The translations under genes and the position numbers were made by a program. The notes under the pieces are model-generated. The model had not been told where the DNA came from. It ran no database searches and was given only the letters and a program-made list of their open reading frames with translations. From IMG/VR virus record IMGVR_UViG_3300024520_000183, positions 1 to 40,525 of that record: 40,525 bases of DNA; one strand, 5' to 3'. The stretch comes from a virus. This document shows positions 5,020-40,525 of this stretch, piece after piece. The stretch's first letter is position 1, and each line of letters starts with the position of its first letter.

Positions 5020-5246
5020 GTGAGTGGCAACCGATAGCGACTGCGCCTAAAGACGAAAGCTTTATTATTGTATTCGCAAGATGGGGTTGGGATTATTATT
5101 ATGCACCGACAGGAGGGCCATATCAAGCTATAGCGTCATTCGATAAGGATTCAGGTAGATTTATACAAACTACCGAAAACCCATACGAAGATTACTCAAC
5201 TGACGCAACCCATTGGATGCCCCTACCTAAGCCTCCTACCGATTAG
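5016..5246 (+). CDS. DUF551-like small protein
   Basis: Start chosen at ATG 5016, in ATGA overlap with the preceding mini-gene; ATG 5004 would add four residues. The opening MSEWQPIATAPKDE and the closing DATHWMPLPKPP match the short DUF551-type phage proteins, whose role is unknown. It is the last + strand gene here, and its final 11 bases overlap the end of the convergent gene on the other strand. Confidence 0.75.
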   Translation: MSEWQPIATAPKDESFIIVFARWGWDYYYAPTGGPYQAIASFDKDSGRFIQTTENPYEDYSTDATHWMPLPKPPTD

Positions 5247-5421
5247 CCCCATCTGGCCCATGCGGGGTATGACCGTAATTGTCCTTTATGCAGTTCTCTT
5301 GAATCCATTGAACTAAACTAACAGCCTCATCAAAGGTTTTTATGCGATCAAAGGGAACAATCGGCTTCCCTGTATCCATCTCAGTATTAGCAGCAACTAT
5401 TGAGCTTGCAGGTATCACCAC
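5236..5421 (-). CDS. Hypothetical protein, 61 aa
   Basis: Last gene of the leftward late unit. It contains DEAVSLVQWIQENCIKDNYG, a likely helix, and ends near the + strand gene with an 11-base tail-to-tail overlap. Its start overlaps the upstream gene's end by seven bases. No family recognised. Confidence 0.55.
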   Translation of the reverse strand: MVIPASSIVAANTEMDTGKPIVPFDRIKTFDEAVSLVQWIQENCIKDNYGHTPHGPDGANR

Positions 5422-5687: not shown

Positions 5688-5770
5688 CCCTAAAACCTAT
5701 ACGACTGAGGCTATGTGGCAAACAGTTTATGGGGAATAACCTAAGCTTCTCTGCACCAAGGATTTAAGGC

Positions 5771-6790: not shown

Positions 6791-7030
6791 TTAATGTATC
6801 CTGCCTACGATATAGTCAGCTATGTGGGATTTGAAATATATGAAGAAGGCGACTAAACCACCCCAACCTAAGCTCACGGCTGTTATCACTTTTGCATGAT
6901 TTGCCGTTTTTTTTTCATTGATAGCAAGGCGTTCAACAATACCAGGAGAGCCCATCTCCTTGTCGCCAACTAAAGCGGTTTCAATGCGGTCTAGCGACTG
7001 CTCTAATTTATCAAATCTTTCTTCACTCAT
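6791..7030 (-). CDS. Small coiled-coil membrane protein, possible holin or lysis accessory
   Basis: Of 79 residues, the first 50 are a coiled coil (RFDKLEQSLDRIETAL) and the last 30 hold one membrane segment (VITAVSLGWGGLVAFFIYF). This layout resembles XhlA-type proteins, in which a soluble helix precedes one C-terminal membrane helix. It lies directly downstream of another membrane protein, suggesting a two-gene lysis cassette although no endolysin is adjacent. Confidence 0.6.
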   Translation of the reverse strand: MSEERFDKLEQSLDRIETALVGDKEMGSPGIVERLAINEKKTANHAKVITAVSLGWGGLVAFFIYFKSHIADYIVGRIH

Positions 7031-7031
7031 A

Positions 7032-7481
7032 TTAACGTGTCTTTGCTATTCCTGCTCCAAAATAAAAGAATGATATGTTTATGGCAAGCCTCCACATCTC
7101 AGGGGTCATTAAGAAACCATCAGCCTCCAATACCTTCATCTTGCCCCCACTCTGAAATAGGCCAAATGCCCTATCTTTCACTGGGGTTAAATATGCGTAT
7201 GTTGTAGGTATGTCGCCATCAAAGGCAAATATGAACACACCCCCAAAAAGTGTCGAGAACACAGCAAACACTATGAACCTACGAACCATAGCCCCTGACA
7301 CCCCTCCGCGCTTATCAGCTTTATTAGCCGATGAGTCATTGGCTCCAAGACCCTCTAAGGCCATCTTGTGATTGTCGGCAGCATTGGCCTGACTCTGAGC
7401 CGCCATCTTCATAACAAACCCCCCTGCTGCTATAGCAAGAGGCTCCATACCACCTAACACACCTGAAAATATATCAATCAT
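7032..7481 (-). CDS. Membrane protein, holin candidate
   Basis: This 149-residue protein has a hydrophobic N-terminal segment (EPLAIAAGGFVM), a clear membrane helix (FIVFAVFSTLFGGVFIFAF) and a third near the end (LAINISFFYFGAGIAKTR). A three-helix layout with a conserved aromatic-Gly-Arg end recalls 3TM holins. It sits after the structural genes and immediately upstream of the coiled-coil membrane protein. The holin role is likely but unproven. Confidence 0.55.
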   Translation of the reverse strand: MIDIFSGVLGGMEPLAIAAGGFVMKMAAQSQANAADNHKMALEGLGANDSSANKADKRGGVSGAMVRRFIVFAVFSTLFGGVFIFAFDGDIPTTYAYLTPVKDRAFGLFQSGGKMKVLEADGFLMTPEMWRLAINISFFYFGAGIAKTR

Positions 7482-7482
7482 A

Positions 7483-8136
7483 TTAAAACCTTATTCCGTA
7501 TGCCAAAGCATCAAAGCGGTCTACTGCGCTAACATCATCCCGTATGCGCCATACAAGCCTGTCATTAGTTCCTGCTCTTAGCCTGAAGCCCCAAGGCATA
7601 CCTAACACCTCTTGGAAATCTATATAGGGCATGAATGCCTCAGATGATCCAGCAACATTATTCGCCCTGAAAGCATTATTACCATTGCCGAAAGCAGGGA
7701 ACCCACCTGATAGGCGAACAAACTCGAAGTTGGATGTAAGTTCGTCTGCTATAACAATATCCCCTAACTCAGCACTAAGCCAATGAAGCTCGCACCCATT
7801 AGTCAGCGCAGCAATTGCTCCAAATTGTGATAGTGTCGCAGTAGCATCTGATATAACAACAGATGTTGACTGCACATAAATATCCTTCTCTTGGTCTGCC
7901 GCAATCCAGAACTCTAATGGCGCAGCTAGAGTCCCAACAACGCGCATATCCTTAGCGTTTGAGCCGCCACTTACATAAGCATGTCCATCGTCCGTGAAGT
8001 ATTGGCGAAATGGTAACGCAGAGTCCTCTTCATCCTTCGGGGGATGGGTGTGAACTACTACGTTTATCTCACCTTCGCCATTGATGCGGGCAGCATTCGA
8101 GCTGTCCCTACCATCTACTAAACGGACATCTACCAT
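7483..8136 (-). CDS. Probable virion-associated protein, 217 aa
   Basis: It opens VDVRLVDGRDSSNAARINGEGEINVVVHTHPP, a style I associate with phage tail or virion-surface proteins, followed by beta-rich sequence with few charged helices. It lies at the end of the tail-adhesin cluster. The start abuts the previous stop. No enzyme motif is visible. Confidence 0.6.
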   Translation of the reverse strand: MVDVRLVDGRDSSNAARINGEGEINVVVHTHPPKDEEDSALPFRQYFTDDGHAYVSGGSNAKDMRVVGTLAAPLEFWIAADQEKDIYVQSTSVVISDATATLSQFGAIAALTNGCELHWLSAELGDIVIADELTSNFEFVRLSGGFPAFGNGNNAFRANNVAGSSEAFMPYIDFQEVLGMPWGFRLRAGTNDRLVWRIRDDVSAVDRFDALAYGIRF

Positions 8137-8739
8137 CTATCGCTCTCCGTCTTTTACGTGTAGGATAAGCGCAGCATAAACCTCAGTTGCTAATGAAGCT
8201 GAGTCCACGCGGATACCAATAGAAGATCCTCTAGGAAGTTCCATATTGATATTAGCATATAGTCGGCCTTCTGGGTTAGCATGTAGTAGTATAACATCAG
8301 ATCCATCAGTAAATGTTTGGTTCTGTGCTGTAGACTTATAAGCAAGTGTTGTAGCCTTTAGAGTCTTAGAGCTACCAAAGTTACGGTTGCCATTCATGTC
8401 CACAGCACTTGCCGCCGTTACGAGTGTTCCCGCAGTAGGATTACGAACTACATAAACACCGATATGACTATCAGTTGTTGTTGTGTTCTTAAAGCCAAGT
8501 GCGATGGCTTCTACAATTACGTCCTCAGTCTCGTCATTCTTGAAATAAAGAATAGCAGAGCTTGTAGATGATAAAAATGCCTCCTCACCTGTATTGATAT
8601 TGTAAGCGTTTCCTAGCCCTGCTGCTGCCTGAGCTTCGCCCTCTGTGACAGCAAAGACCTGAGCCTCATTACGTCCGTTTACGCCTAGGCCTTTGCCTGT
8701 GCCGTTTCCGTTATCTGATATACCTAGTCCTTGAGCCAT
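8137..8739 (-). CDS. Probable virion-associated beta-rich protein, 200 aa
   Basis: The N-terminus is Gly-rich (ISDNGNGTGKGLGVNGR) and the rest is beta-rich with Thr, Ser and Asn, as in trimeric tail-spike or fibre accessory parts (EAFLSSTSSAILYFKNDETE). It follows a 4-base gap and is followed without a gap. I infer a structural role from composition and place; no family assigned. Confidence 0.6.
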   Translation of the reverse strand: MAQGLGISDNGNGTGKGLGVNGRNEAQVFAVTEGEAQAAAGLGNAYNINTGEEAFLSSTSSAILYFKNDETEDVIVEAIALGFKNTTTTDSHIGVYVVRNPTAGTLVTAASAVDMNGNRNFGSSKTLKATTLAYKSTAQNQTFTDGSDVILLHANPEGRLYANINMELPRGSSIGIRVDSASLATEVYAALILHVKDGER

Positions 8740-8743
8740 AATA

Positions 8744-9007
8744 TTATAATTTTAAGTTTGTTATTGTGGAAAGTTGAAACTCTATCTTCTGAAGAGTCTG
8801 TAACATTTGTAAATTCACTTGGACGATGTCCTCACCACCACCAACCTCTGAAGCGTTGCTAACCTCGACTGATCCGCTAGAGATTGCTATGGTTCCTCCA
8901 CTTATATGACCAATAGTTCCAACGCGGTCTAAGCTACCTCCACCAGCGATTACAGGCCCACTGATTGTTGTGGATCTATCTCCATGTCTGCCGTCCGTAT
9001 CAGCCAT
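8744..9007 (-). CDS. Small Gly/Ser-rich virion-type protein, 87 aa
   Basis: The N-terminal 55 residues are low-complexity Gly/Ser/Ile (TISGPVIAGGGSLDRVG, SGGTIAISSGSVEVS), which could form beta-helix turns. The C-terminal 30 residues form a Leu/Gln-rich helix (VQVNLQMLQTLQKIEFQL), perhaps for trimerisation. The start overlaps the preceding stop as TAATG. Confidence 0.6.
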   Translation of the reverse strand: MADTDGRHGDRSTTISGPVIAGGGSLDRVGTIGHISGGTIAISSGSVEVSNASEVGGGEDIVQVNLQMLQTLQKIEFQLSTITNLKL

Positions 9008-9501
9008 TATGCGTTGCTCCCATAGTCATATACATCAACGTCAGCAAGTGCCGCCATGTCCTGTATATTGTTCTTAATCATGAATCGAATGCTAATATCC
9101 TCATCCGACAACTCACGGTTTCCCCATGTAAATTGACTGCTATACTTTCGCGCAGGATCAAAGCCAATGAGGTGCAACACCGCTATGCCACACGAAATCA
9201 AATAGGACGCAGCTAACTCCGCAGAAGAATACTTCAAGAATAAATCCCCTATACTATAATCCTTAATCTCACCCACAATACGCTTACCTTCACCTGTTAT
9301 GTAGTCGCATCCTACGGGTGGCTTAATCTCCTGATAGTCCTCGAAGCATGAGAAGCAATATGTAGGCTCAGGCACAACAAAACATGCGTGATTCACTGTA
9401 GCCCTAAGCTTGCCAGCATCCTCCATGCTAAAAGAATCAAGGCTTGGCCCCTTTCCGAATAACCAAGCCTCTTCACCTTTATGCTTAAAGGACATCTGCA
9501 T
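9007..9501 (-). CDS. GKGPSLD-motif protein of the tail-fibre cluster
   Basis: The N-terminus reads AWLFGKGPSLDSF. The Gly-x-Gly-Pro-Ser-Leu motif is shared by DUF115 proteins of flagellin glycosylation loci and by GT42 sialyltransferases, where it forms part of the nucleotide-sugar site. Further on are YLISCGIAVLHLIGFD, a likely Rossmann-type strand, and a conserved-looking CFSCFEDY. At 164 residues it is shorter than those enzymes. It may be a small sugar-modifying or sugar-binding enzyme; glycosyl transfer is inference. Confidence 0.55.
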   Translation of the reverse strand: MQMSFKHKGEEAWLFGKGPSLDSFSMEDAGKLRATVNHACFVVPEPTYCFSCFEDYQEIKPPVGCDYITGEGKRIVGEIKDYSIGDLFLKYSSAELAASYLISCGIAVLHLIGFDPARKYSSQFTWGNRELSDEDISIRFMIKNNIQDMAALADVDVYDYGSNA

Positions 9502-9743: not shown

Positions 9744-10441
9744 TTCGCTAATAACTCCATCTCTGCAATAGTTAGAATTTTAGTAGACAGGAAGCAGTTA
9801 GATGGTTTCCCGCCTGTTAGATTTGACGGTGCTCCATTAGCAGTAGTCATGATACCCCATCCATCAGTCCATGTTGAGGTATCCCATGCGCTAGTTATAG
9901 ATACATTGCCACTATGAACAGTCCCATTAGACTCTTTGATGCAGTAATCAAAGCCAGAGTTATCAGTGACCGCCATACATACAAATGTATTTGCAGAGCT
10001 ATCGCTGAATGATGTTATAGCCGCGCTAAAGCTTGTTGCCGCAGCGCGAGCCTGAACCTCTATTTTATCAGTAGCTATCTGAGAGCGAACACGGAACCAA
10101 TTATCTGCATTAGCACGTAGCTGAAGGATTGTATTATTGTTGCCGCTACTCCATATACCTGAGTCAAAGTTGAACCAACCACCCATCGTGCCATTCCCAT
10201 CACAAGGCATGTCACCTGTTGAGATAGTAGCCTCAAGGCCATAGTCGGTAGAGCCATCGAACAAGGGTGATCGCTTCCCATCTATAGTAGGATTATTGGC
10301 AAAGTTAGGGCTTCCGCCATACGCACCGTCATTAGCCTTCTCAGAGAAGTCTACCAACGTAGAGCCACTACGCTCATTGCATGGAAAAAAACGGACTAAC
10401 CCGCTTCCGCAGATGTGCCTAACTTTGCTCTCGTAGTTCAC
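9740..10441 (-). CDS. LamG / concanavalin A-like lectin domain protein
   Basis: The 233 residues fit one LamG-type jelly roll: GLVRFFPCNERSGSTLVDFS at the start, SPLFDGSTDYG, GTMGGWFNFDSG, WFRVRSQIATDKI, FVCMAVTDNSGFDYCIKES, and CFLSTKILTIAEMELLAK, the last matching the common A-L-T-x-x-E-I-x-x-L ending. Such domains bind sugars, so it could be a receptor-binding part of the tail fibre or a capsid decoration that binds polysaccharide or mucus. Confidence 0.75.
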   Translation of the reverse strand: MNYESKVRHICGSGLVRFFPCNERSGSTLVDFSEKANDGAYGGSPNFANNPTIDGKRSPLFDGSTDYGLEATISTGDMPCDGNGTMGGWFNFDSGIWSSGNNNTILQLRANADNWFRVRSQIATDKIEVQARAAATSFSAAITSFSDSSANTFVCMAVTDNSGFDYCIKESNGTVHSGNVSITSAWDTSTWTDGWGIMTTANGAPSNLTGGKPSNCFLSTKILTIAEMELLAK

Positions 10442-13267: not shown

Positions 13268-16200
13268 TTAGAGGTTCTTTACTATTCGCTGGAACTCCTC
13301 GAATAGTGTTTCGTCTCGCTTCGTGTGTTCCTGTACACCTATCCCTGACCCAGCCCCGCCAACAGCCAATACGCCCTTGACCGCTGATCCCGTGTTAGCA
13401 GCAACCGCAGCGAACTCCTGCACTGGCAATGGGGTGACACCTCGAACGATAGCATCATGCCACTCAACATCCTGCCCGATAACATTCTTCCCTGTTGCCA
13501 AAGTCCAAGGAAGCTGTAGTGCTGGCGATGTTTTATACATCACAAAATTGCCTAGATCTTTCACTGAACTACCACCAGACTTCCGCTTATCCGCTATACC
13601 TAATGTCTGCGCACCTGAGTATAGAACATTTACTGCGATTCTTACGGGCTGAATCATGCCGCCCCATAGATCTATATGAGTGTCACCCATGATAATTTTA
13701 CCAAAGTCGCTGTCGTCGGGGTCTAATCCCACGTCAGCACCGTTCGCCTTAGCGATTGCCATGAATGACATCCCCATTGAAACAGTGGTTATGAAATCAC
13801 GCATTATTGCCCGATTTACGATGTCCTTTTTTCCTGTCGCAAGATCATTTCCTAGCTTAAAACTCTGAGAGAAGAGCATCCCCGTTAGTTCTATGCGACT
13901 CGTAGCAAATCTAGGGGCAAAGAAGAATGCAGAGACGTTCTCTGCCCATGCTCCCGCAAGTTTCATTTGCCCACGACCTGAAGCGATATTCACGTAATGA
14001 GCGTATGCTTTCTTTTCCTCCATTGTGGCAGATGGATTCGCCTTAACGAACTCATCGAATGCTGATGTCCTCAACATATTGAGCCCAATTACCATATTGC
14101 GCTCTGAAGCCTTAATGATGTTCAACCAACTTGGAAGGAAGTCAAATGCTGAGGACATGAAATCTTCCTCTCTTGCACTAAGCGAAGTCTCTAGCCCACC
14201 CATAAATAATCCAGCGCGATCTCGTTCAAGCTGAACTGCTGCGTCCTCGCGCATCGCTATGTCTATCTGGTCTGCCTTGTTCTGTGAGAAGAATGCAACG
14301 AAAGCTCTATCGAAAGCCTTAATCGCTGCCCCTTTAGTCGGCACTCCCCATCCGTTAAACTTAACGACACGGCTAGACCCGAGTATCAATCCTTGCCTCA
14401 TAAGGAAACTCATGTCGCCTGTAGCGAGCAATGTCCTTGAAGCGAGTAGAACTGCGATAGCCTTTTCTGTTTTAGTTTTCTGCCTCTTGTCGCGTATGTT
14501 CTGGGCTATGATGCGCGTAAGTTCCCTATGCTTTATTCGGGCCGCCATAAGGTCATCTGACACCGCAGCAAAGCGTTCCTTTGGTGGCATAATCTTATAC
14601 TTCTTAGAACGAATCTGGTTTTCTAGATCTACAATAGACTCCTCCGTTCTCAGTGTCGCTTGGAGGTCGTTAAACGCTTCCATAGCCATCTGAACATCCA
14701 CGCCCTTCTCGGGCTTAGGGAATTTAGGCTTCAGACCATTCTTCTTTAAATCTTCAATACCATCAAGTAATTTATCTAGCTGGTCGTCTGACTTCTTGCC
14801 TTCCTTTAGAACCTTCAAGGTTTCTTTAAGGGTCTTTATCTCATCTGACTCGAAGAACGCGACACCGTTAAAGTGATTAGACTCACCATTTTGAGCTAAG
14901 TCCGTAAGCATTCTATTAATTTGATCCCTTAAAGCCTTTCGTGTGGAGAGCTCGCGCTGTATGTCTTTTATTTTATTCCGCTTCGCCTCTAACTCTGGAC
15001 TAATCTTCCTCTTTTTCGAGAAGGGTGCGATCTCTGAGGCCAGCTCAAGCTCAATAGCCTCCAGGTCTGTTATTCTAGCATCAGCCGCCTGTAAGTCTCT
15101 TGCGTTTGCAAGCAAGTCCTTGGCTTTCTTCACCGACTCACGAACCTGAGAACGAACACCCTTCTTAATGCGACGAACTCCCGCATCTAAAGCATCCTCA
15201 ACAGCAGCAAGCTCCTTAATTACATGAGATAGCTGCCTGTCATCCTTAATTGTCTTTAAAAACCCTGCCTTGAGCTCAATAAGCTTCTCTTTTAGCTTCT
15301 GTATTTCTTTGCCCTGCTTTGTCGCATGCTTGACGCTACCTTTGCCCTTCATAGTGAAGGTATTCTTTAGCGCAGAATTGATTTCAGCTTGAAGTGATGC
15401 AAGCTGCTTCATATTAGCTATACGTTCCTCAGCCTCCTTGCGAACCTTCTTCAATGCCTTAGGGTTCCGTCCACCTAAAGCATTTAAAACATCCTGGTCT
15501 TTTATGTCAGGAATGTCGCCCTTAACCTTGTCGATAACATCATCAAGTGTTGTTGAGCCTTCTGATACATAAGTCGAGGCAAGTTCCGCGACGAGATAAC
15601 CCATCTCTAGCGATAGCCCTATAGCACCAGTTATATCATTAACCCTCACGCCAAGCTCCTTGATCCTATCCTTTATGCGCTTACGCTTATCAAATATTGC
15701 CTTGGATGTTTGCTTAGCCTTCTTGGCTCGCTTGGATGCAAGTGTTAAAGTTTCTCTAGCAGCAACCAATAGTGCCTCAGCATTAGCCGCCTCTGCCTCT
15801 TGCTCTAATTGCTCTATCCGTTCCCGAGCAACCTGAGCCTCCCTTGACCATGCCGCTATCTCTAGCCTCTCTTCGTTCGTAAGCTCACGCTGAGCATTGA
15901 ACTTAGCAACATCTAACATATTCGCTAACTTATATGTATCTGAGTCAAAGAATGACCTACGAATACTCAATGCGCGACCTGCTTGTGTGCCTAGACCCCT
16001 AGATGCAAGGGACAACGTATCAAGTCGCTCGATTAGTCCAGCGATAGCAATATCAGCTTTCTTAGTCTGCGCCTCATCCATTGTATTCCCTGCGTCCTTC
16101 TGGTGTTGAAGTATCGCATCCTCTACTTTGGATATTTCTATAAGAAGAATTACTTCTGCTTCTGTTAGATCGTGATTAACAGGGCGACCATCATTTACCG

Positions 16201-35397: not shown

Positions 35398-35674
35398 TAG
35401 CAAAAAAGCATTGTACGAGGAGCGTTCTAGGCTAAGTGAAAGAGAGTCTCAAATATACGAAATGCTTAGAGGAATGCCGAATGACTCGCATACAGATAGG
35501 CAAATTATGGTAAGACTAGGCTTTTCAGAACCTAACCAGGTCAGACCACGTATAACAGAACTGATTAACAAGGGGTTGCTTATGGAGTGCGGGAATACCA
35601 AGTGCTTAGAGACTAGGAAAACTGTGAGACTAGTGAAATTATATAGTGATAACAATCAAATGGAGATGTTTTAA
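35387..35674 (+). CDS. Winged-helix protein, 95 aa
   Basis: GTG start at 35387 behind GAGGAGGG, overlapping the previous gene by 11 bases. The sequence RLSERESQIYEMLRGMPND, TDRQIMVRLGFSEPNQVRPR and ITELINKGLLMECG follows the three-helix-plus-wing layout of MarR/ArsR-like folds and restates a common phage pattern. It is probably a DNA-binding regulator acting with the next gene. Confidence 0.65.
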   Translation: MHSNSKKALYEERSRLSERESQIYEMLRGMPNDSHTDRQIMVRLGFSEPNQVRPRITELINKGLLMECGNTKCLETRKTVRLVKLYSDNNQMEMF

Positions 35675-35675
35675 T

Positions 35676-36218
35676 ATGAATATAGCAGCAATAACTACAT
35701 ATAAACACGGCGGAATGCTAAAGGCATTGACCAAGCTAGGATGGACAAGCGCAGAGCTTGCTAGAAGGATGAATATAAGGCCATGCGAAATATCTCATCT
35801 AATGACACTAAAGAGAAAGCCTAAGCAAGACATGGCTAATCAGATCCAAAGAGTATTCGGAGAGGGAGGGCTGTATGTAGATGTTACTGAGTGGTGGCCT
35901 GAAGCGTTTACGGGCATGAAGGAGAGAGTGAAGTCAATAAGCTTTGCAGATATTGACCCTGAAGCCGTTAGCGCATTAGACACAAAAACCGACTATAGGT
36001 TAGCGCATCTGACGGACGCGATAAAATCCTTACCTAACCAGCAGCGCAGAATGATGGACATGAGGTTTGACGGAAAAACATTAAAGGAGGCAGGGAAGGA
36101 GATGAATGTCGGGGTTGAGAGAGCTAGGCAAATTGAATTTAGGGCAAAAAGAAAGATTATGTGGCTGGTGCTCAAGTCTGTAGCGGATGATGACCATTTC
36201 AACGCCATAGAGGTATAG
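35676..36218 (+). CDS. XRE helix-turn-helix fused to sigma70 region 4-like domain
   Basis: Start at ATG 35676, just after the previous stop (the longer frame overlaps it). Residues 8-60 form an XRE repressor-type HTH (GWTSAELARRMNIRPCEISH, then LKRKPKQDMANQIQRVFGEG). Residues 110-170 read SLPNQQRRMMDMRFDGKTLK and AGKEMNVGVERARQIEFRAK, matching sigma70 region 4 (Leu-Pro, the RF-x-G turn, the -35-binding helix). It likely controls phage promoters; it lacks sigma region 2. Confidence 0.8.
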   Translation: MNIAAITTYKHGGMLKALTKLGWTSAELARRMNIRPCEISHLMTLKRKPKQDMANQIQRVFGEGGLYVDVTEWWPEAFTGMKERVKSISFADIDPEAVSALDTKTDYRLAHLTDAIKSLPNQQRRMMDMRFDGKTLKEAGKEMNVGVERARQIEFRAKRKIMWLVLKSVADDDHFNAIEV

Positions 36219-36707: not shown

Positions 36708-37280
36708 ATGAAACCAATCACAACAACACTGAATGAAATAAGAAGTCACGAACCTTGCTCTGATGGGTGGGAGAAACTATTGAAATCCCTAGGCAAAACT
36801 AAAGCGGACGATGAGCCACTTGAGTTAGTTACCATACTTGAAAGCAACGACATAGCGGATGCGGTATGGTGCTTGGGGTGTCTTAGTGAAGACCATGAAT
36901 ACCTTGTGCGCCTGTTCGCCTGTGCATGCGCGGAAAGCGTTCTACATTTATATGAGAATGAATACCCTGAAGACTTTCGAGTGCGCAATTGCATTGAAAC
37001 TTCTAAAAAATATGCACTTGGGTTGTATGACGATGCTACTTGGGCTACTACATTGACTGCTGCTGGGGCTATTACATTGACTGCTGCTGGGGCTGCTGCT
37101 TGGGCTACTACTAGGGCTGCTGCTGGGACTGCTGCTTGGGCTACTGCTAGGGCTGCTGCTGGGGCTGTTTGTGATGCTACTGTTAGGGATGCTGAAGAGG
37201 AAAAGCAAACCGTATTCTTCAAGGAATACTTCGGATCGCCTAAAACTATAGAGGAATATAAAACACTATTAACTAAATAA
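36708..37280 (+). CDS. Imm5-like protein with Ala/Trp repeats
   Basis: A 190-residue protein starting at ATG 36708 behind AAGGAG. The helical N-terminal part (ADAVWCLGCLSEDHEYLVRL, FACACAESVLHLYENEYPED) leads into a low-complexity helix of AAWATTRAAAGTAAWATARA repeats, then an acidic end. This resembles phage proteins called putative Imm5-like immunity proteins. The true function is unknown. The repeat DNA is GCT-rich and may vary in length by multiples of three. Confidence 0.65.
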   Translation: MKPITTTLNEIRSHEPCSDGWEKLLKSLGKTKADDEPLELVTILESNDIADAVWCLGCLSEDHEYLVRLFACACAESVLHLYENEYPEDFRVRNCIETSKKYALGLYDDATWATTLTAAGAITLTAAGAAAWATTRAAAGTAAWATARAAAGAVCDATVRDAEEEKQTVFFKEYFGSPKTIEEYKTLLTK

Positions 37281-37292
37281 CTAAATAGAATA

Positions 37293-37754
37293 ATGAAAAA
37301 AGAGATAGAAATAGACGGGAAGCAGTTCGAGCTAGTCCCATTTAAAGGGGAAAACACTCATGGCTGCATCCCTTGTGATAAAGTTAAGTATAAATCTGGC
37401 TACCTACTGAGAGAGCTACCCAGTAAACCCGATGTGCCTGAGAAGTGGGAGCCGACTGAAAATGGCACTTATTATACTATAAATAGTTGTGGCGAACTAT
37501 ACGGGGACGTATGGCATGAACATCGTTCAGACCAGGGGAGACTAGAAGTAGGTAACTGCTTCTCCACCGAGCAAGAAGCCAAGGACTCAATCATATATAA
37601 AGCATTTCACGGGGATGCTGTGGCTAAGATGTCGCGCAATAATGCCTGTAGGTCGCTACATGAAATAATCAACGAAAGCGGCAAGTGTCATCAAACCCTA
37701 ATTCTAGACAAGCTCACCGATCTAGGCTTCATAAAGAACGAGGTGGAGTTATGA
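37293..37754 (+). CDS. Hypothetical protein, 153 aa
   Basis: Last gene of the early unit. A beta-rich N-terminal half (KEIEIDGKQFELVPFKGENT, HGCIPCDKVKYKSGYLLREL) with TYYTINSCGELYGDVWHEH, then a helical end. The strong terminator follows at once. No family recognised. Confidence 0.7.
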   Translation: MKKEIEIDGKQFELVPFKGENTHGCIPCDKVKYKSGYLLRELPSKPDVPEKWEPTENGTYYTINSCGELYGDVWHEHRSDQGRLEVGNCFSTEQEAKDSIIYKAFHGDAVAKMSRNNACRSLHEIINESGKCHQTLILDKLTDLGFIKNEVEL

Positions 37755-37837: not shown

Positions 37838-38032
37838 TCAAGCGTTCCATATCCTGCGCCTAGAAGGATAGCCATTAGTGCGCTTAAAAGCCTCTACACT
37901 ATGCTCCAACACCTCAAGGCGACTCTCTATGCGAGATATAACATTGATGGCCTCCTGGAGGCGTATAGAAGCTTCACTAGCATCTTTGTTAAGTTGCTCT
38001 AAGGTGTGGCGATCTTTAGGCGTAAAACTCAT
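37838..38032 (-). CDS. Small coiled-coil protein, 64 aa
   Basis: Helical with heptad-like spacing (EASIRLQEAINVISRIESRL, LEHSVEAFKRTNG) and a basic end. It is the only leftward gene right of 33.5 kb and converges on the terminator at 37776-37804. No strong ribosome site is present; the start codon lies inside CTCATAAGAG, half of the capsid operator sequence. Confidence 0.5.
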   Translation of the reverse strand: MSFTPKDRHTLEQLNKDASEASIRLQEAINVISRIESRLEVLEHSVEAFKRTNGYPSRRRIWNA

Positions 38033-38351
38033 AAGAGCAGCAACCTTATTGCTAGGGAGCTATATAGCAATTATATAATAGCTAAGTAGCTATATGGCAG
38101 CCATTTATATGCGCCGATGAAAGCCCCTTTAGGATAATTTCTCATCTATTGGCTCAGTCGTAAGCTGAGTGCTATCCAGTCACTCTTTCGATTAAATCTA
38201 CTCTAGTGCTATCACAGTCCTTACAATGTTTATTGCCCACCTGAACCCGCAGAGGTGGCTCGCTGCGTCAGGAATTAAGTGAAGGTCTGTTTAACTTTCA
38301 AACTACGTTCTAAGGATCAAACGCTAACCTACAAACTGCCCCTTCCATTGG
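38033..38351. other. Gene-free AT-rich stretch with short palindromes
   Basis: No supported gene. It contains AGCTATATAGC and AGCTATATGGC 30 bases apart (38058-38068, 38088-38098), the palindrome GCTATATAGC (38059-38068), a TATAAT readable on either strand (38074-38079), hairpins CTCAG-N7-CTGAG near 38153-38170 and CCACCT-N10-AGGTGG (38237-38258). An origin-like or regulatory role is possible but not shown. Confidence 0.5.
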
Positions 38352-38355
38352 AGCC

Positions 38356-38445
38356 AAAAAAAGGACTCAAGCCACACACTTAGAGTCCTTCTTTCGCAAC
38401 ATAAAATTGCTTATTAAAATCTGTCATCCATGTGTGGTGGAATTA
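38356..38445 (-). ncRNA. Candidate small RNA, about 90 nt, with its own terminator
   Basis: A consensus-like promoter directs transcription leftward from about 38445 to a strong intrinsic terminator (stem AAGGACTC 38361-38368 with GAGTCCTT 38383-38390, inner AAG/CTT pairing, seven-T run 38356-38362). No gene lies between. The 5' part contains CCACACA, which is complementary to TGTGTGG in the terminator loop, so an alternative fold or pseudoknot is possible. Confidence 0.6.
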
Positions 38446-38451
38446 GTAAAA

Positions 38452-38480
38452 GTTAAATCAGCTACTAGAATCCTTGTCAA
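38452..38480 (-). promoter_or_regulatory. Promoter of the candidate small RNA
   Basis: On the - strand a perfect TTGACA (38475-38480), a 17-base spacer and TTTAAC (38452-38457; 4/6). Placed between two leftward terminators. Confidence 0.65.
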
Positions 38481-38488
38481 GCTTTCTG

Positions 38489-38520
38489 AAAAAAAAAAGA
38501 CGGCCCCCTATTAGGGAGCC
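38489..38520 (-). terminator. Second leftward terminator
   Basis: On the - strand the hairpin GGCTCCCT-AAT-AGGGGGCC (38502-38520, one mismatch) is followed by GTC and a ten-T run (forward A-run 38489-38498). It would stop leftward read-through just before the small-RNA promoter. Confidence 0.7.
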
Positions 38521-38583
38521 TAGAACCCATTGGGAACTTAAAAAGAAACCCCCTCACCCGCTACGCAGATGAGGAGGCCAACA

Positions 38584-38625
38584 ATGAGAGAGTGGAAACA
38601 ACACCACAGTCCTGACAATGAGTAA
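38584..38625 (+). CDS. Possible 13-aa leader peptide
   Basis: ATG 38584 has a strong GAGGAG site 8-9 bases upstream and reads MREWKQHHSPDNE to a TAA at 38623-38625. It lies upstream of the promoter at 38668, so it would need a separate transcript. Too short to prove by sequence. Confidence 0.25.
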   Translation: MREWKQHHSPDNE

Positions 38626-38667
38626 AATTAAATAATACTCAAGAACTAAAATAAAATAAAACAAGTA

Positions 38668-38696
38668 TTGACATCTACTCTAAAGCCCTTAATAAA
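38668..38696 (+). promoter_or_regulatory. Consensus promoter of the replication/recombination unit
   Basis: TTGACA (38668-38673), a 17-base spacer and AATAAA (38691-38696). The leader then carries a small hairpin CACCC-N6-GGGTG (38708-38723) and an AAAGGAGAG ribosome site before ATG 38747. Confidence 0.7.
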
Positions 38697-38746
38697 TAGG
38701 CGCAACACACCCCCCATTGGGTGAAACAAACTAAAAGGAGAGAATA

Positions 38747-39130
38747 ATGAATGAACAACTAGATAACGCGGCAGTAGATGCCCTTGTAAGTATTGTCACT
38801 AACGCAGCACGGGCCAAAGAGTTTGTGCTTTCTGAACTACCAGAGGTGGTTGAGCAATTACTGGCATGGAAGCTGGTCGAGAGTATTGCAGTGAACCTAA
38901 TATGCCTCGCAGCAATAATCGCAATTGCCGTTAATATAATCAAGCTAGTAGCCTTCGGGTCAAAGGATAACTGGAAGGGAGATGCAGTTATGGTTTGGGT
39001 TTTTATAACGATAGGTATCACAACAGTAATAATTATAACTTCATTTTTTCTTATGAATCTTGCATGGATTCAGATATGGATAGCCCCAAAAGTGTACCTG
39101 CTAGAATACGCATCGGAGCTTGTAAGATGA
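38747..39130 (+). CDS. Membrane protein, possible holin
   Basis: The 127 residues have an amphipathic N-terminal region (AAVDALVSIVTNAARAKEFV, then ELPEVVEQLLAWKLVES) followed by two membrane helices (VNLICLAAIIAIAVNIIKLV and VWVFITIGITTVIIITSFFL). The PEVVEQLL-xW pattern occurs in phage membrane proteins annotated as holin-like. The endolysin lies on a separate transcript 2 kb upstream. Confidence 0.6.
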   Translation: MNEQLDNAAVDALVSIVTNAARAKEFVLSELPEVVEQLLAWKLVESIAVNLICLAAIIAIAVNIIKLVAFGSKDNWKGDAVMVWVFITIGITTVIIITSFFLMNLAWIQIWIAPKVYLLEYASELVR

Positions 39131-40335: not shown

Positions 40336-40525
40336 ATGCGCGGTGACGGTTACGGTCACGGTGACGGTGAAGGTTACGGTTACGGTCTCGGTCTCGGTGA
40401 CGGTGACGGTTACGGTGACGGTGACGGTGACGGTTACGGTTACGGTAAAGGTTACGGTTACGGTGACGGTTACGGTCACGGTGACGGTGAAGGTTACGGT
40501 TACGGTCTCGGTCTCGGTGACGGTG
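40336..40525 (+). CDS. 5' part of a possible Gly-X repeat protein (partial)
   Basis: ATG 40336 then Arg and Gly-X pairs to the window end (X = Asp, Tyr, His, Glu, Leu, Lys). It matches the frame that ends at 256 on the left. No ribosome site is visible, and all Gly codons are GGT, so this may be a by-product of the repeat rather than a gene. Confidence 0.3.
   Translation, partial: MRGDGYGHGDGEGYGYGLGLGDGDGYGDGDGDGYGYGKGYGYGDGYGHGDGEGYGYGLGLGDG
40342..40525. repeat. Right part of the (GGTNNN)n tract
   Basis: About 31 six-base units of the same kind as at the left end. The pattern has a 120-base higher-order period: 40342-40443 equals 20-121 exactly, and the next copy starts at 40462. The last 77 bases (40449-40525) are identical to 7-83. 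Confidence 0.95.
40449..40525. repeat. 77-base terminal direct repeat (with 7-83)
   Basis: Exact identity of the two contig ends over 77 bases. Just outside it the sequences differ by two bases (CGGTAAAGG at right, CGGTCTAGG at left). The likely cause is an assembly overlap in a repeat of a circular or terminally redundant genome; a true short terminal repeat is the alternative. Confidence 0.85.

Follow-up and report, generated by a model that had tools for sequence, protein, structure and literature searches.

Candidate short, terminated leftward transcript in the control region of a podovirus-like phage

A candidate short leftward transcript

The gene-free region between the leftward and rightward early units of a podovirus-like phage contains a locus that may constitute a short, terminated leftward transcription unit, yielding an RNA of about 90 nt that is possibly a regulatory small RNA (sRNA). 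We give this reading about an even chance of being correct, and consider a short terminated transcript the likeliest interpretation of the locus because its promoter-like site has the position that a unit enclosed by two terminators would require. Terminator hairpins and promoter-like hexamers are present at the locus, and a long ORF is absent. An earlier note had described the arrangement as the textbook layout of a bacterial sRNA gene. The layout indeed fits a short terminated leftward transcript, but the description is overstated in view of the marginal promoter, the unstructured RNA body, the lack of an Rfam match and the lack of a phage target. On the sequence evidence alone, the locus is a candidate and not a discovery. 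If transcribed, it would add an sRNA from an uncultured podovirus-like lineage, encoded in the control region between early units.

In the proposed mechanism, RNA polymerase would start near position 38445 from the TTGACA-17-TTTAAC site and terminate at 38390-38356, where the hairpin and U tract lie. The released RNA would be untranslated, open in its 5' part and closed off by a stable terminator at its 3' end. Such a unit would occupy the control region that separates the rightward replication unit from the leftward unit of small genes. We infer that the RNA would act in trans, most likely by base-pairing with a host transcript through its open 5' part, a host partner being favored because no phage target stands out.

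Genomic setting

The window, i.e., the whole stretch of DNA that was analyzed, is a virus record of 40,525 bases. Family scans of the window recognize a head-tail adaptor, a terminase, a major head protein, an Erf annealing protein, an exonuclease and a DnaB-like helicase. The connector is ~24-30% identical to the connectors of Pelagibacter phages, Bordetella phage BPP-1 and phiV10-like phages, and the phage is on account of these matches probably podovirus-like. Hexamer repeats of the form GGTNAC occupy positions 1-251 and 40341-40525 and encode a Gly-Tyr/Asp/His repeat protein; since this protein seemingly spans the record ends, the record is probably circular or cut within the repeat.

The locus lies within a gene-free stretch of 714 nt (38033-38746), between a leftward ORF of 64 aa and the rightward replication unit, which starts at 38747 and includes Erf (Table 1). 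The presumed rightward early promoter, stated earlier to be about 190 bases away, has its TTGACA at 38668, at a distance of 188 nt. Elsewhere on the plus strand, positions 35646-36218 encode a protein that combines an HTH domain with a sigma-70 region 4 domain and may be a phage transcription regulator with a promoter preference of its own. The protein encoded at 36708-37280, also on the plus strand, weakly matches Imm5-like immunity proteins and contains an Ala/Thr-rich repeat that is encoded by a DNA tandem repeat.

Table 1. Features of the locus and its surroundings, in window coordinates unless another locus is named.
Feature	Position	Strand	Remarks
T1, strongest leftward terminator hairpin	38547..38579	minus	Loop tip CTGCGTAG; MFE -24.2, z -5.9
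T2, leftward terminator	38489..38520	minus	Stem 38520-38502, ten-T tract 38498-38489; MFE -14.5, z -3.0
Candidate sigma-70-type promoter TTGACA-17-TTTAAC	38452..38480	minus	Exact -35, weak -10
Putative short RNA, ~90 nt	38356..38445	minus	Start placed from the -10, end from the terminator
CCACACA, complement of the T3 loop	38431..38437	minus	Found in 240/20,000 shuffles
T3, leftward terminator hairpin	38356..38390	minus	Stem 38390-38361, loop TGTGTGG, seven-T tract 38362-38356
Leftward 64-aa ORF	37838..38032	minus	57% in the close relative
Presumed rightward early promoter TTGACA-17-AATAAA	38668..38696	plus	
Sites of the CTGCGTAG tip	Window 38547-38579; L002 ~5266-5295; L122 ~13363-13400	minus	

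Terminator hairpins

Read from right to left on the minus strand, the order of elements is T1, T2, TTGACA, TTTAAC, ~55 nt and T3, and the three leftward terminators all fall inside ~220 nt. The terminators of the locus are stronger than shuffled sequences give and hence are not due to chance; ten shuffled windows contained about one hairpin of -15 or better per window, both strands taken together. A two-strand terminator scan lists few strong terminators in the window, T1 and T3 among them; T2, missed at the first settings, was picked up at looser ones. The leftward terminator that had been described at 38489-38520 is present as T2, a stem followed by a ten-T tract. The second one, previously called perfect, is present as well, in the form of T3, which within a piece of 51 nt has an MFE of -22.4 (z -5.2; 0/200 shuffles as good), but it is not perfect, with one bulged, unpaired T in its stem. 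T3 supplies the 3' intrinsic terminator with a U tract that is looked for in an sRNA gene. T1 lies outside the interval covered by the earlier note, which did not mention it.

Candidate promoter

The two hexamers reported previously are found on the minus strand, with TTGACA at 38480-38475 and TTTAAC at 38457-38452. The -10 hexamer agrees with TATAAT at four of six positions; the two that it misses, A2 and T6, are the most conserved ones, and for this reason the candidate is absent from a simple promoter scan. Scored with an E. coli matrix, which may not fit the host of the phage, the candidate ranks 85th in the window, or 28th when combined with an 18-nt spacer and TTAACT. Many of the sites scoring above it fall inside genes, and the better of its two matrix scores is reached by 347 of 3000 shuffles of the 110-nt gap. 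A stricter form was defined as an exact TTGACA, a -10 with at least four of six matches and a spacer of 16-18 nt, a test picked after the site had been seen. This form occurs at only three sites on both strands of the window (38668 plus, 38480 minus and 31253 minus), two of which, at 38668 and 38480, lie in the intergenic stretch, and it is present in 66 of 3000 shuffles of the gap. The promoter is plausible yet marginal, and is weaker evidence than the terminators; that it fires, we infer from these hexamers.

The putative RNA and its folds

The bases following the promoter are gene-free, as stated before, with no ORF of at least 40 aa overlapping 38356-38450. The ~55 nt between TTTAAC and T3 are unstructured, and sliding folds over 38390-38489 on the minus strand reveal no structure beyond chance when compared to shuffles (z +0.9). 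Rfam 15 gives no match at the gathering score for the whole window and nothing credible for the region at E-values up to 5, the best matches of the region being far below the gathering score. Target prediction for the 5' region had been suggested as a check. For the phage part of this prediction, none of 63 chosen phage gene starts pairs with the 5' 54 nt better than 200 mononucleotide-shuffled controls (best -19.4, weaker than the best of all 200 shuffles), and a phage target is therefore disfavored. A small protein gene was also considered and rejected, as the 15-codon frame present there has no Shine-Dalgarno-like sequence upstream.

The 5' CCACACA and the loop TGTGTGG (38378-38372) are exact complements and are able to pair, as had been proposed, but the match is modest: with dinucleotide shuffling of the upstream part, 240 of 20,000 sequences contain the full 7-mer match. 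The accompanying suggestion that the RNA might switch between two folds is weakened by the folding energies. When forced into a nested fold, the pairing yields -18.0 kcal/mol versus -26.0 kcal/mol for the terminator fold, and a lasting switch is unlikely because of this cost of 8 kcal/mol. While the 3' arm is still to be made, the CCACACA-loop pairing is part of the best fold of the 5' part (-16.5), and a transient pairing at that stage is the portion of the suggestion that stands. Tag and loop could also touch without disrupting the stem. A self-tuning switch RNA would go further: the CCACACA tag would transiently trap the terminator loop during synthesis, the choice between a released 90-nt RNA and read-through into the leftward unit would be set by transcription speed or by a tag-binding protein or RNA, with the region serving as a timer for the two early units, leftward and rightward. 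We regard such a device as very improbable.

Relatives

A single close relative was found, contig IMGVR_UViG_3300009103_000146 (read as loci L082, L086, L089 and L112; head protein 89%, terminase 85%). It is the one close match among the 23 loci of the terminase search and the only one of 103 in the search with the 64-aa protein; the head protein search gave three loci, one of them close (with alignment, the same 3/28). A genome-contig search returned 9/108, all of at most 27% identity and left out of further comparison, and the search with the protein starting at 38747 gave 0/14 candidate stretches and no phage record. The DNA of 36700-40525 matches one of four related records, in Erf only. 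For the region itself, no DNA relatives were found in phages at an E-value of 1e-5, the matches at loose E-values in phages and plasmids were chance-level pieces of 19-47 nt with no credible relative among them, and an exact hairpin scan of viral contigs returned none.

L086 carries ~10 small leftward ORFs (6981-9311 minus), the 64-aa protein among them, versus one in the window. Its ORF at 8846-9250 has an N-terminal stretch in common with the window ORF at 37293-37754, which lies on the other strand. The matching gene-free region of L086 contains a leftward hairpin at 9946-9978 (I4) with a 7-nt loop and a T tract (MFE -18.9). Because the contig stops 22 nt upstream of this hairpin, the comparison is confined to the hairpin; by eye, the two stems differ at several paired positions, in an alignment that is uncertain and, with two sequences, too small to test covariation. 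Local alignment of the gene-free regions on the plus strand gives a score of 26 for the window and L086, within the range of the shuffles (maximum 30). The corresponding score with L002 is 33, slightly above the shuffles (31), and stems from the T1 hairpin alone.

L002 shares Erf (73%) and the T1 hairpin tip with the window. Two leftward terminators of L002 have their T runs at 5390 and 5266, and a weak hairpin accompanies a third T run at 5162; for its matching region, no promoter-like site is listed. A pattern scan for the CTGCGTAG tip found only L122 and the L002 contig; the tip is thus seen in a leftward terminator in three otherwise different phages, each time in a gene-free region. The Erf search yielded at least 80 loci; among the matches listed, L002 alone has enough of the replication unit in common with the window to be informative. 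Among the matches listed, 50 Erf loci have at least 2 kb upstream; of these, 18 contain at least one leftward terminator and 6 at least two, the equivalent numbers for rightward terminators being 28 and 4. With at least two leftward terminators in only 6 of these 50 listed loci, a terminator stack does not generally accompany Erf units.

Alternative explanations

The stack of T1, T2 and T3 might instead halt leftward transcription coming from the right and insulate the divergent units, with no dedicated RNA gene and with TTGACA being incidental. We hold this to be a serious alternative, if clearly short of an even chance. The transcription to be halted would run antisense through the replication unit, or would be late transcription that passes the convergent junction at 5739/5771, where the replication unit faces the leftward unit. 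Neither strand has a terminator-like fold at this junction; on a circular or concatemeric genome, leftward read-through could therefore enter from the right. The crowding of three leftward terminators argues in the same direction, as does L002, in which two to three leftward T-run hairpins stand ahead of the replication unit, yet with no promoter-like site. Insulation leaves the promoter-like site of the window, rare in its strict form, unexplained, and the few Erf loci with at least two leftward terminators among the matches listed speak against a general need for it. The transcript starting at 38445 could also be a conditional-termination leader for the leftward small-gene unit (37838-38032; ~10 ORFs in L086), which T3 would mostly stop and which would read through if termination were prevented; the 5' CCACACA may then delay formation of the terminator. 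T3 is located upstream of the leftward unit in both the window phage and L086, the tag-loop pairing is part of the best fold before the 3' arm is made, and the 15-codon frame ends inside the T3 stem. However, T3 is separated from the ORF by 325 nt with other promoter-like sites in between, the final fold prefers the terminator, and the frame has no ribosome-binding-site-like sequence and does not qualify as a leader peptide; we judge such a leader improbable. The late leader of lambda is a terminated leader RNA, with a promoter and then an intrinsic terminator ahead of an operon. The window locus resembles it in this order of elements but differs in that no antiterminator gene or site is identified there.

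The hairpins might finally act as DNA, for example as part of an origin or of genome ends, with transcription beside the point. The whole region is gene-free and combines hairpins with a direct repeat, the 16-base CACAGTCCTNACAATG, which flanks the locus at 38213-38228 and 38605-38620. However, the T run that follows each hairpin is confined to one strand, as in intrinsic terminators, and the repeat exceeds chance weakly, since 9 of 100 shuffles contain as many matches when up to three mismatches are allowed. Direct repeats as an origin signal were accordingly rejected as weak, and a role as DNA seems the least probable of the readings weighed here.

Comparison with known phage RNAs

Short RNAs of such size are already known from other phages, and the kind of element is therefore not new, although, according to PMC4933390, phages other than the temperate models have yielded few known sRNAs. 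OOP RNA of lambdoid phages overlaps cII by 52 bases and acts as an antisense RNA (PMC5869508, PMC12197685). The short terminated transcript predicted in the window is similar to OOP as described there: it would likewise be short and leftward, with a promoter and a terminator of its own, and close to replication genes. It differs in that OOP overlaps cII, whereas no ORF of at least 40 aa lies opposite 38356-38445 and no homology is seen; with no overlapping gene, an OOP homologue or OOP-type antisense RNA was rejected. According to PMC12197685, PreS (LPR1) of lambda, ~88 nt in length, and VpdS of phage VP882 are trans-acting RNAs that work with Hfq; they are small phage RNAs of a size class similar to that of the putative window RNA. 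Their expression, Hfq binding and targets are reported in that paper, and sRNA1 and sRNA2 of the virulent phage PAK_P3 were seen by RNA-seq and are late-expressed (PMC4933390), whereas the window RNA is a prediction from its sequence only. The PAK_P3 RNAs, transcripts of ~100 nt whose function is given as unknown in the same paper, share both their intergenic location and their approximate length with the putative RNA of the window.
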